Positions 4,817 to 41,382 of a stretch of 64,000 nt of DNA are shown here, piece after piece (the first letter of the stretch is position 1; each line of letters opens with the position of its first letter). A program made the translations under genes and the position numbers. Below the pieces are notes generated by a model. It did no database searches and was not told the origin of the DNA. It saw only the letters and a list, made by a program, of their open reading frames with translations. The stretch is from a virus. Location of the stretch: positions 113,461-177,460 of the IMG/VR virus record IMGVR_UViG_3300008952_000005; one strand, 5' to 3'.

Positions 4817-5897
4817 CTACTTCCTCCCAGGCTTTCTCGTCTTCTATTTTTTCTTTTATCTTGTTTTTGTTTTCTTCTTTTTGAATTTCTTTTGTTTTAA
4901 GTGCTTCTAAATGTGCTAAATGTGCTTGATATTCGTCCCAAGTTTTAAACTTTGTTTTATTGGCTTTGTTATAATTTTTTACTTCAAGTTTTTGTGCTTT
5001 CTTTAATTCTTTTTTAGCTTTCTTTTCTTTCTTAAAATCTTCGTATGTTTTCTCTGGTTTTGCTTCGCCAATATCAACTGTTATTTCATCTGCTACTACT
5101 TTTAAATCTTCTGTTGGTACTATTTCCACTAGTTCAAATTCCCATAGTCCTTTTTCTGCACCTTCATTAATTAATTCTACTACACCTTTTTCTATTGCTT
5201 TTCTTACTGCATAAGTTACAGGTTCATTTCTTGCCACACCTGCTTCAATCTCTACTAACATTGTATCAGTATCTAAATATTTAAATATATCGCTGCCAGT
5301 TTCACCTGATATTATAGTCTTCTCAACAGTAAGTGATACCACTACTTCACCTGTTTGTACATTAACAAGTCTTAATATAATTGTAACTACATCTTGTCGC
5401 CATTGTTTATGTGCTTGTATACCTAAAATTCTTGCACCAAAACCACCTGTCTTTACATCACTATCATAACCTACTATACCACCTGTTATATATGCACCTG
5501 CAAATAACAATGGTGGTAATGGTTCTGCACCTTCTCCATTAACTTGTTGTCTTGTAGAACGGATTAATTTTCTTTCTTGTAATAAACTTGGCAAACTTGC
5601 TCGTTCTACTATTCTAAACCATTTGCCATCACCTGCGTCTTGTAATGCTTTAATTAATAACTGATATGATCCTTGAGTTACTGCTGTACTCATAGACGCA
5701 AAGTTACCACCAGGTTTCTTTTGTCCTGTCATATCTAAAAAATCATATACTGCAATGATAATAGGATCGCCTTTAGGTAATTTCACTTCCGTTAATTCTT
5801 TATACAGAACAGGTTGAGACCTAACATCAAAGTCAGGTTTACCAGCACAACTAACTAACAATAATGTTAGTAATAATATAACTATACTTCTAAACAT
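4767..5897 (-). CDS. csgG: Curli secretion channel lipoprotein CsgG, with long charged C-terminal extension
   Basis: A 376-aa outer-membrane lipoprotein. The lipobox is L-V-S-C (C17). The body shows CsgG family features: I-A-V-Y-D-F-L-D-M-T-G-Q, the run through W-F-x-V-V-E-R/FRIVERASL, the LIRSTRQ segment, and the G-G-I-V-G-Y-D-S-D and W-R-Q-D-V-V-T-I-x-L-R-L-V-N stretches that build the nonameric pore. I chose the ATG at 5897 rather than the longer frame to 6002, because the extra 35 residues lie in csgF and lack a signal. After about residue 265 there is a Lys/Glu-rich tail of about 110 residues absent from E. coli CsgG. The start overlaps the csgF stop by one base. Confidence 0.9.
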   Translation of the reverse strand: MFRSIVILLLTLLLVSCAGKPDFDVRSQPVLYKELTEVKLPKGDPIIIAVYDFLDMTGQKKPGGNFASMSTAVTQGSYQLLIKALQDAGDGKWFRIVERASLPSLLQERKLIRSTRQQVNGEGAEPLPPLLFAGAYITGGIVGYDSDVKTGGFGARILGIQAHKQWRQDVVTIILRLVNVQTGEVVVSLTVEKTIISGETGSDIFKYLDTDTMLVEIEAGVARNEPVTYAVRKAIEKGVVELINEGAEKGLWEFELVEIVPTEDLKVVADEITVDIGEAKPEKTYEDFKKEKKAKKELKKAQKLEVKNYNKANKTKFKTWDEYQAHLAHLEALKTKEIQKEENKNKIKEKIEDEKAWEEVDEKNDNDSVDSNSINE

Positions 5898-39665: not shown

Positions 39666-40052
39666 TTACTGAACAGGACAATTTGGATTTTCTGTTAAGT
39701 CTACAATAGTAGCATTTGCTGTAACCAATTGGTCTGCTAATTGAGTTGCTACTGCTTCTGCTGTAGATAATTCAGCTTGAAATACCGACAATTCATTATT
39801 GGTACTTTGTAATACATCACGAATTGAAGCTATTTCCAATTCATATGCTTGTATTGTACCTTCTAATCTTGCAATACTATCCAAATATTCTGATTCTACG
39901 GCAGAAATACCTACTTCAGCATTTTCTAGTTCTGCTTGTAATCCATTAATATCATTTTTTTGGTCTATAGTAACTATCAACAATGCAAGTACAACAACAA
40001 ATATTGCTATCCCTACACCTGATATCTTCTTTTTTATATCTTTAAGTTTCAT
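39666..40052 (-). CDS. Membrane-anchored coiled-coil protein
   Basis: A 128-aa protein with an N-terminal TM helix (residues about 13-28) and a long acidic coiled coil (about 30-118), ending N-C-P-V-Q. The topology is like an inner spanin or a periplasmic tether. It overlaps a lipoprotein gene by 4 nt (ATGA), with the lipoprotein upstream. Function unknown; a second membrane-spanning pair is possible. Confidence 0.6.
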   Translation of the reverse strand: MKLKDIKKKISGVGIAIFVVVLALLIVTIDQKNDINGLQAELENAEVGISAVESEYLDSIARLEGTIQAYELEIASIRDVLQSTNNELSVFQAELSTAEAVATQLADQLVTANATIVDLTENPNCPVQ

Positions 40053-40255
40053 TTATTTTCCTTCTTATCAATTAATTCGCAAGTAATCTCATCTGCTTGT
40101 AACCCAGCATTGCTATCAAATATCCATACGTAAGAATAGTGAACCTGGTCACCTTTTGCTACGCACTTTTTACCGAATGCTATACTTGGATTTTTTATGC
40201 TTGAACAAGCGCTTAAGAGAATCAAACTCATTAAAATCACTAATATTTTATTCAT
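40049..40255 (-). CDS. Small lipoprotein
   Basis: A 68-aa lipoprotein (lipobox L-S-A-C, C17) with a basic/aromatic mature part and two further cysteines. The start at 40255 is chosen because GAGGAAATT lies just upstream and the signal begins at MNKIL; the longer frame adds ten residues before it. A strong early promoter (40274-40302) drives it. Confidence 0.6.
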   Translation of the reverse strand: MNKILVILMSLILLSACSSIKNPSIAFGKKCVAKGDQVHYSYVWIFDSNAGLQADEITCELIDKKENK

Positions 40256-40273
40256 AATTTCCTCATTTAGTTT

Positions 40274-40302
40274 ATTATATAACAATAGTATTTATAAGTC
40301 AA
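40274..40302 (-). promoter_or_regulatory. Early-type promoter with an embedded late motif
   Basis: TTGACT (40297-40302), 17-nt spacer, TATAAT (40274-40279), minus strand. The spacer contains TATAAATA (40289-40296), so this unit might be read both early and late. Confidence 0.75.
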
Positions 40303-40362: not shown

Positions 40363-40812
40363 TTATTTAACGTCTATTGTTTTTAGTTTCTTTTCTTCTG
40401 GAATAATCTTCTCCATAGAAACTTTTAACAGTCCATCTTTCAGTTCAGCACCTTTGACTTTTACGTCATTAGCGATTGTGAAAGACCTTTTAAAGTATCT
40501 TTTAGAGATACCTTTATGTATTACTTCACCGTCTTCATCCTTGTCGGAAGCTTTATCTTCCTTCTTGGTTTCAATAGTTAGCATACCGTTTTCAACATTG
40601 ACAGTAATGTCTTTCTTGTTGAATCCAGCTAATGCAACTTCAATATCGTAAGTATTCTTACCTGACTTAACTATATTGTATGGTGGGTAACTAGGTTGTA
40701 TATCGTTAATGAAATCGTCATCAAACATTGAACCGAAATGGTCAAAGATTGAATCAAATCCAACCGATACTGGTCTTAACCTGTTAAAAATAGATAATGC
40801 TTTATTGGTCAT
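40363..40812 (-). CDS. Small heat-shock protein Hsp20 (IbpA-like)
   Basis: A 149-aa alpha-crystallin chaperone that holds unfolded proteins. The crystallin domain covers about residues 43-140: Y-D-I-E-V-A-L-A-G-F, D-I-T-V-N-V-E-N-G-M-L-T-I, and the A-x-x-x-x-G-L-L-K-V motif (A-E-L-K-D-G-L-L-K-V). A strong AAAGGAGG site precedes the ATG. The gene is bounded by a terminator and by a long structured leader, so it may be independently regulated. Confidence 0.95.
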   Translation of the reverse strand: MTNKALSIFNRLRPVSVGFDSIFDHFGSMFDDDFINDIQPSYPPYNIVKSGKNTYDIEVALAGFNKKDITVNVENGMLTIETKKEDKASDKDEDGEVIHKGISKRYFKRSFTIANDVKVKGAELKDGLLKVSMEKIIPEEKKLKTIDVK

Positions 40813-40826
40813 AAAAACCTCCTTTT

Positions 40827-41145
40827 ATTAAGCAAAGTTATCGTTTATGAGTCCCTTAATGGCAACTCACTACTACTTATATATGTAGTTTCCTACAATA
40901 TACAAGTAGCGCCGATGGATTTATTTTTAATAGTATGAATCCACCAAAATATCTATCGTAGTGTCCGCTATTGGTATTGAAACCTTTGGACCTTCTATGG
41001 GTTTTAGAGTCTCCCCAAACTCCCACAAAACTCGTAATTCATTGAGGTTTTGTTATAGTAGACCTCAAACTACTACCAACTTTCAGATATTAAATCTGCA
41101 GGTGTTGGCACCCTTCCACGCCCCAGGACTTATGAACTGCCTGGT
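40827..41145 (-). ncRNA. Unidentified large structured RNA or long structured leader of hsp20
   Basis: The 40813-41178 gap has no convincing ORF but is dense in structure on the minus strand. In transcript order: CCAGG/CCTGG hairpin (41124-41145), CAGAT/ATCTG hairpin (41084-41098), an H-type pseudoknot (TAGTAG 41070-41075 with CTACTA 41056-41061; TTGAGGT 41062-41068 with ACCTCAA 41042-41048), GTTTT/AAAAC and GAGT/ACTC helices (about 41007-41033), a TGGATT/AATCCA helix near 40916-40945, a 16-bp hairpin closed by a GAAA tetraloop (40873-40909), and a second pseudoknot (TGAGT/ACTCA interleaved with ATTAAG/CTTAAT, 40827-40869) ending 5 nt before the hsp20 ribosome site. The GAAA loop appears only on this strand. 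It could be a cis-regulator of hsp20 or a free RNA. Confidence 0.6.
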
Positions 41146-41178
41146 ATAATATATTTATTCAAGCACAGGCGTGTAATT

Positions 41179-41382
41179 CTATAATCTTGCTTCTCTTAAT
41201 TTCTGCCTCTTTTTGGCGTTCTTGATACCCTCTTTTTTCTTTTCTCTTTTAATTTCAGATGGTTTTCTATAGTATTGTTTTAATTTATACTCTTTTAATA
41301 AACCTGCTTTAAGTACTTTTTTCTTAAGCACTCTCATTGCTTTCTCTACATTACCGTGTCTTACTTCTACTGTTATACTCAT
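41179..41382 (-). CDS. rpsU: Ribosomal protein bS21
   Basis: A 67-aa bS21 homolog: N-terminal V-E-V-R-H-G-N-V-E-K-A-M-R-V-L-K-K-K, then the basic helix with Y-Y-R-K-P-S-E-I-K-R-E-K-K-K. S21 helps the 30S subunit start translation. Phage copies are known from marine T4-like phages and may bias host ribosomes towards phage mRNA. Upstream of the structured RNA and hsp20. Confidence 0.93.
   Translation of the reverse strand: MSITVEVRHGNVEKAMRVLKKKVLKAGLLKEYKLKQYYRKPSEIKREKKKEGIKNAKKRQKLREARL

Follow-up and report, generated by a model that had tools for sequence, protein, structure and literature searches.

The bacteriophage T4 proteins gp32 and gp43 recognise RNA structures in the mRNAs that encode them, a pseudoknot in the first case and a hairpin in the second, and put antitermination provides a precedent for an RNA element that acts on RNA polymerase. 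RNA thermometers of the ROSE-like kind are defined, in the portion of PMC3669281 used here, by a U(U/C)GCU motif that blocks the Shine-Dalgarno (SD) sequence in a 3' hairpin, and the same portion presents the two-hairpin ROSE-like leaders of Pseudomonas ibpA, 61-62 nt long, as tested thermometers. The gene hsp20 is named as a core gene of T4-like cyanophages in excerpts of PMC3037559, and no report on the control of phage hsp20 was found in open-licence PMC papers. A survey of pelagimyophages reported, in the part of PMC7029224 considered, no riboswitches by Riboswitch Scanner and no detectable late promoters, and the structured RNA and promoter-like elements described below would therefore be useful additions.

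The region between rpsU and hsp20

The window, a 64-kb stretch of a 177-kb virus record, comes from a T4-like phage of the pelagibacter type. Of the named relatives found, Pelagibacter phage Mosig is the closest, and SAR11 bacteria are probably the hosts of the source virus. The genes follow one another as peptidase, CobS-like ATPase, small genes, S21, the RNA region, hsp20, small genes, gp45 clamp and gp44 clamp loader (Table 1). Just after hsp20 (39666-40285, minus) stand two overlapping ORFs, one of 78 aa that is lipoprotein-like and one of 128 aa for a membrane coiled-coil protein, and by eye the pair has a spanin-like look.

Judged by comparison with relatives, the 366 bases before hsp20 are a real structured RNA with two modules, the conserved elements of which are hairpin 1, one or more H-type pseudoknots, hairpin C and hairpin D. 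Our preferred reading, to which we assign a probability of roughly two in three, is that of a composite hsp20 mRNA leader that heads the gp45-gp44 replication genes and combines a thermometer-like hairpin D, two promoters and a separate upstream cis element.

The minus strand of 40813-41178 was predicted to fold at -103.1 kcal/mol, lower than all of 100 dinucleotide shuffles (z -4.13). A preliminary description of this DNA had proposed one large structured RNA without a convincing ORF; the RNA is indeed conserved and folded, and its start had been placed correctly, directly after what proves to be the rpsU (S21) stop codon, but it consists of two modules rather than one. It contains no conserved ORF; the sole minus-strand ORF inside it, 49 aa from a GTG codon, is present in 3 of the loci listed. 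Either a lack of covariation among homologs or a conserved protein encoded in the homologous regions would have spoken against a structured RNA, and neither was found. The pairing statistics given below ignore kinship, and related sequences inflate the confidence they convey; no counts were taken from the MAFFT alignments (A3-A6) because these misplaced variable arms.

Table 1. Features in and around the hsp20 leader, in window coordinates.
Feature	Position	Strand	Basis
hsp20 (small heat shock protein)	40363..40812	-	tblastn matches to annotated phage Hsp20
Hairpin D, AACUUU-G-CUU / AAG-GAGGUU	40816..40839	-	YGCU/AGGA arrangement in 125/130 leaders; predicted fold and melting
Hairpin C, bulged G, apical CC/GG	40847..40870	-	129/130 distinct leaders
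16-bp hairpin with GAAA loop	40873..40909	-	present in the window, only in near relatives
Sigma70-like promoter for hsp20 (TTGTAT, 16 nt, TATATA)	40876..40905	-	sequence match
Probable second pseudoknot, GATAG/CTATT with GGTGGATT/AATCCATC	40914..40957	-	by eye
H-type pseudoknot 1, S1 GTAGTAG/CTACTAT, S2 TTGAGGT/ACCTCAA	41042..41076	-	beats shuffles in relatives
Hairpin 2, GCCAAC..GTTGGT enclosing an AU-rich hairpin	41075..41109	-	present by sequence
P1 outer helix, 3' arm (GGCGTG)	41117..41122	-	complementary arms
Hairpin 1 (CCAGGCAGTTCATAAGTCCTGG), near-invariant loop, bulged A/U	41123..41144	-	flanking-pair statistics; loop-closing variants
Late-promoter-like AATAAATATATTAT	41146..41159	-	sequence match
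P1 outer helix, 5' arm (CACGCC)	41168..41173	-	complementary arms, mostly in one clade
rpsU-like phage gene (ribosomal protein S21)	41179..41382	-	Pfam PF01165, E 2.1e-12

Two hairpins at the hsp20 ribosome site

Leaders of hsp20 were gathered by protein, by motif (among the matches listed) and from named phages, which gave 130 distinct 75-nt tails. The ~55 nt nearest to hsp20 (40816-40870, minus strand), here called module C/D, hold two hairpins, and the same layout was found in named cyanophages and in the isolates HTVC008M, Mosig and Melnitz. Hairpin D covers the SD sequence, UUGCUU of the ROSE type being paired with AAGGAG in the window. The last pseudoknot, which had been placed beside the ribosome site (ATTAAG 40855-40860 with CTTAAT 40827-40832), was not borne out, since in 124 leaders the complementarity was about that of shuffled loops and the bases in question make the two separate hairpins C and D instead. 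The 47 distinct arm pairs of hairpin C were 99.6% paired as against 53.8% when arms were swapped between leaders, and none of 2000 permutations attained the observed pairing; the simple parser picks the best stem, so that the swapped-arm value is the fair comparison. For hairpin D, in which the SD sequence largely dictates the arms, the covariation was accordingly modest (88% paired, 78% with swapped arms). Five leaders (L036, L037, L039, L043 and L044) carry UGUCU in place of YGCU with hairpin C the same; by eye they are still able to pair the SD sequence, with a mismatch where the bulge would be, and they could possibly be variant thermometers.

This anatomy agrees with that of the ROSE thermometers (Pseudomonas ibpA, RF02523) in several respects: the leader belongs to a small heat shock gene, C/D has a similar length (~60 nt), and a 3' hairpin in which U(U/C)GCU pairs imperfectly with the SD sequence (125/130 leaders) is preceded by at least one other hairpin, here hairpin C (129/130). 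The E. coli ibpA leader folds into the same bulged-G hairpin as hairpin D. The locus departs from the ROSE thermometers in standing on phage genes, in scoring below threshold or not at all in Rfam, and in having an extra promoter-like element, pseudoknots and hairpin 1 in front of the C/D of the window.

Matches to ROSE_3 (RF02523) were found exactly at the hsp20 start codon in 5 of the 19 records searched (Melnitz 34.1 bits, S-SM2 24.9, P-RSM6 23.7, record G005 22.7 and S-CAM1 14.8), every phage ROSE match being below gathering (43 bits for ROSE_3). In these five relatives the matches extend over both hairpins and the start codon, and that of Melnitz had an E value of 6e-6 in a 121-nt scan. 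Counting any ROSE_3 match at E<=10, 7 of the 19 records had one, those in G000 (best 12.6 bits) and G002 being located elsewhere, and 12 had none; control genomes also match ROSE_3 weakly, so that only position and the stronger scores count. ROSE_2 matched hairpin D of P-SSM4 and S-CAM1, and the Rfam ROSE model RF00435 matched none of 9 records at E<=10. The C/D of the window itself is too divergent for Rfam and gave no ROSE match; given this, and given that the best relative, Melnitz, stays below 43 bits, we leave the window out of the ROSE_3 family and regard it as ROSE-like in its presumed working only.

Folding of longer leaders cannot decide the thermometer question: the accessibility of the SD sequence in the window went from 0.76 at 5 C to 0.67 at 42 C, which is the wrong direction, and the computed change was small for the E. 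coli ibpA control too (0.21 to 0.41). For isolated hairpin D the mean energy rose from -6.3 kcal/mol at 15 C to -2.8 kcal/mol at 37 C (125 leaders), with a predicted median melting at 55 C, above sea temperatures.

It is conceivable, if rather unlikely in our estimate, that hairpin D is a plain hairpin which masks the SD sequence and tunes translation and is no thermometer, its UYGCU likeness to ROSE being convergence. The weak computed effect of temperature and the failure of the ROSE models to match the window would suit such a hairpin; it is opposed by the five relatives in which ROSE_3 covers both hairpins and the start codon, by the small heat shock protein gene that is always downstream and by the retention of the bulged G. 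Of the functions initially considered, that of a thermometer finds support for the 3' ~55 nt, both in their anatomy and in the ROSE_3 and ROSE_2 matches of relatives, and hairpin D likely works like a ROSE RNA thermometer. It would keep hsp20 translation low in cool cells and would be opened by warming or by initiating ribosomes, upon which translation would rise. On this reading hsp20 would be thermoregulated by C/D. Given that a ROSE-type leader stands in nearly all collected hsp20 leaders, these ocean phages may meter this chaperone by temperature.

Hairpin 1, pseudoknots and promoter-like elements

The most conserved string among the relatives is GGCARUUCRUAAGWCC, the loop of hairpin 1, and this hairpin stands directly after a promoter-like TATAWATA. 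The matches listed give 98 distinct motif windows once six chance ones are left out; 97 of these have a TATAAATA/TATATATA-like stretch that lies 7-13 nt upstream of the 16-mer, which would place hairpin 1 at or near the predicted 5' end of the RNA. The three pairs flanking the 16-mer were formed in 94.6% of cases, compared with 57.8% with swapped flanks (the same 98). The loop-closing pair is usually C-G, with U-A in 3 hsp20-linked loci and U.G in 1; of 13 motif matches with a C.A mismatch at this position none was hsp20-linked. HTVC008M itself carries GGUAGCUCGUAAAUCC.

A scan of viral contigs for GGCAATTCRTAAGWCC, a motif biased to that exact loop, gave at least 120 loci, in 101 of which hsp20 lies within 1.7 kb downstream on the same strand. 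The other loci of that count comprise 4 that stop too early, 8 of a single clade (L105-type) and 7 (L100, L102, L125, L156, L169, L203 and L208, which make up six distinct windows) that were dropped as chance because they are located among unrelated genes. In the 8 L105-type loci among those listed, hairpin 1 stands, without hsp20, directly before gp45 and its companion gene, in the order DUF3310-gp45, the first of which we presume from a reading of its protein sequence to encode a DUF3310 protein; on two contigs of this clade (L154 and L157) hsp20 with a C/D leader lies elsewhere. Named cyanophages have C/D at hsp20 but lack a good copy of hairpin 1 anywhere in their genomes, and the two modules are therefore separable. 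That the RNA continues into hsp20 or, in the one clade, into DUF3310-gp45 disfavours the stand-alone ncRNA that had been considered at the outset; no terminator was seen by eye.

In a check independent of the motif, a general hairpin 1 was found in 37 of 82 hsp20-anchored loci, as compared with 0.24% of shuffled sequences; L032, L041 and Mosig were counted as lacking it owing to a loop change or to distance. A scan of genome contigs yielded 25 motif matches, 23 of them without hsp20 and taken as chance. The two that precede hsp20 (L315 and L318) lie on contigs assigned to Porticoccaceae and Flavobacteriales MAGs; these contigs are probably phage DNA placed in the wrong bin.

The arms of an outer helix, P1, were complementary (score >=16) in 51% of the 98 distinct motif windows and in 17% after swapping, with 34 distinct arm pairs. 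A promoter-like stretch lies between the arms, so that the P1 helix could form only in read-through RNA, for instance as an extra helix in RNA reading through from rpsU. The leader of T4 gene e is similar in having late promoters inside a stem (PMC3014915, in part) and different in that P1 covers no ribosome site.

On the 3' side of hairpin 1, a pseudoknot with 6-bp and 7-bp helices and no nucleotides between them had been described; this pseudoknot 1 is conserved, with changes in both stems, and it is among the best H-type pseudoknots found. Its parts follow one another in the window as GTAGTAG, T, TTGAGGT, CTACTAT, AACAAA and ACCTCAA. By a simple custom stacking score, which was used for all middle pseudoknots, 63 of 88 distinct leaders have an H-type pseudoknot downstream of hairpin 1 that beats its shuffles at p<=0.05, where about 4 such leaders would be expected; it was not significant in 25, among them L011 (p 0.07), which is closely related to the window. 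There are 53 distinct S1/S2 sequences, in which both stems vary compensatorily, mostly with no nucleotide between the stems and with an A-rich third loop (54% A); L1 is short and S2 measures 6-10 bp. The stretch that corresponds to the probable second pseudoknot is the best pseudoknot in the relatives L103 and L143. Hairpin 2 is weakly supported, relatives having other hairpins there, and it has 2 nt in common with stem 1 of the pseudoknot.

The middle part varies. In a compact group (L107 and L147) the order is hairpin 1, pseudoknot, hairpin C, hairpin D and hsp20, with the start codon only ~120 nt after hairpin 1, and an ORF stands between the upstream module and hsp20 in L165 (327 aa) and in Mosig (323 aa, L081:5477-6448; no Pfam match over cut-off, no PHROG). 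Annotated hypothetical proteins overlap the structured RNA in Mosig (L081:5065-5184 and 5197-5313) and in Melnitz (L219:1329-1433), and these are probably not genes. One might take the variable middle and the extra 323-aa ORF of Mosig to mean that the whole stretch is a relic or an insertion (intron or mobile element) with chance folding, an idea that we regard as highly improbable since it is contradicted by covariation with controls and by the fixed place of the stretch across divergent phages.

Between the pseudoknots and hairpin C of the window stands a second promoter-like element, and 79 of 137 leaders, where 3.5 were expected, have an element of this kind (TTG-N3-N15..17-TATA) 45-130 nt upstream of hsp20. 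In L111, L122 and L192 the S1'/L3 stretch of the pseudoknot contains the -35-like TTGAAA of this putative near promoter, the same DNA serving for both. The 16-bp GAAA hairpin noted in the preliminary description exists in the window and spans the same stretch as this conserved promoter-like element; its conservation is limited to a clade, with 0 pairs in some other relatives. In the composite leader that we prefer, two putative promoters would feed the RNA. Transcripts from the near one would have a short leader made up of the two hairpins of the thermometer, and those from the far one would begin at hairpin 1. Hairpin 1 and the pseudoknot would be a separate cis element on the hsp20/gp45 transcript, and might, in what is the least certain part of the proposal, protect the 5' end, bind a phage or host factor through the fixed loop, or do both.

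The upstream module, a conserved RNA that combines a fixed loop with a pseudoknot, could be matched to no known family; we found no Rfam match for it and no report in open-licence PMC papers. We see an even chance that hairpin 1 and the H-type pseudoknot represent an undescribed class of phage cis-regulatory RNA, recognised by a specific factor, often joined to a ROSE-type thermometer and retained by pelagi- and methylophages, in most cases as a single copy in the genome, where it heads the hsp20/gp45 operon; if so, one leader would sense both an infection signal and temperature.

Alternatively, the module could be an operator bound by a replication protein encoded downstream that controls the operon, by analogy with T4 gp32 and gp43. 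It heads hsp20-gp45-gp44 and is still found with gp45 where hsp20 is missing, and its fixed loop and H-type pseudoknot, with the short L1, the S2 of 6-10 bp and the A-rich L3, resemble the gene 32 pseudoknot as outlined in the available part of PMC3014915. Like the gene 32 leader of T4 and T2, it has an H-type pseudoknot with stems able to stack in the mRNA leader of a T4-type phage, but the gene is another one, there is an additional hairpin with a conserved loop, L3 is A-rich and the ribosome site is far away. In most loci ~100-330 nt separate it from the next start codon and hairpin C intervenes, whereas T4 operators overlap the initiation region, and we consider such an operator doubtful.

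About equally tentative is the suggestion that the module, as a promoter-proximal element, acts on RNA polymerase in the manner of put antitermination, or that it is purely a stabiliser of the 5' end. Hairpin 1 begins within a few nt of the predicted start site, and does so downstream of late-like as well as TTGAAA-N17-TATATA putative promoters; if the module were only a stabiliser, its loop sequence would not have to be fixed.

Less likely still is a riboswitch for a metabolite, confined to the upstream module. The conserved loop, the pseudoknot, the usually single copy and the leader position would fit, and glutamine riboswitches are reported from related phages in the part of PMC9004378 consulted, but there is no Rfam match, the middle part is large and freely variable, a conserved expression platform was not seen and the gene downstream encodes a chaperone.

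Known RNA families at the locus and elsewhere

A scan against Rfam gave no match in the window at the gathering threshold, and nothing credible within 40813-41178 at E<=10. A SAM-II or SAM-V riboswitch at the 3' end, an idea prompted by an H-type pseudoknot near AAAGGAGG, was rejected: RF01826 was over cut-off in none of 7 records, its match in G000 lies elsewhere, and two conserved hairpins occupy the 3' end instead. We also rejected a tmRNA, which had been considered since Melnitz is reported to possess a two-piece tmRNA (ARAGORN found no gene in the window and no tmRNA in 8 leader loci, and there was no Rfam match), and a group I intron (no Rfam match in the window).

The manA and wcaG motifs, to which the region could not be matched by inspection, are indeed not what it contains: the window had no Rfam match at gathering, and the manA model (RF01745), also run directly, had no match in G000 at E<=10. 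The manA RNA is comparable in that it occurs in marine T4-like phages and is reported from ibpA leaders (PMC2864571, in part), and differs in that its model has no match in the window; it does have matches at other places in Mosig, in G005 and, weakly, in HTVC008M. These manA matches, all away from hsp20, are at MT647606.1:108164-108371 in Mosig (64 bits, the sole one over cut-off), G005:121974-122182 (53 bits) and NC_020484.1:5037-5223 in HTVC008M (25.9 bits). In a related phage contig (L032:3502-3550) a glutamine riboswitch (RF01739, 57.5 bits) lies ~50 nt after hsp20.
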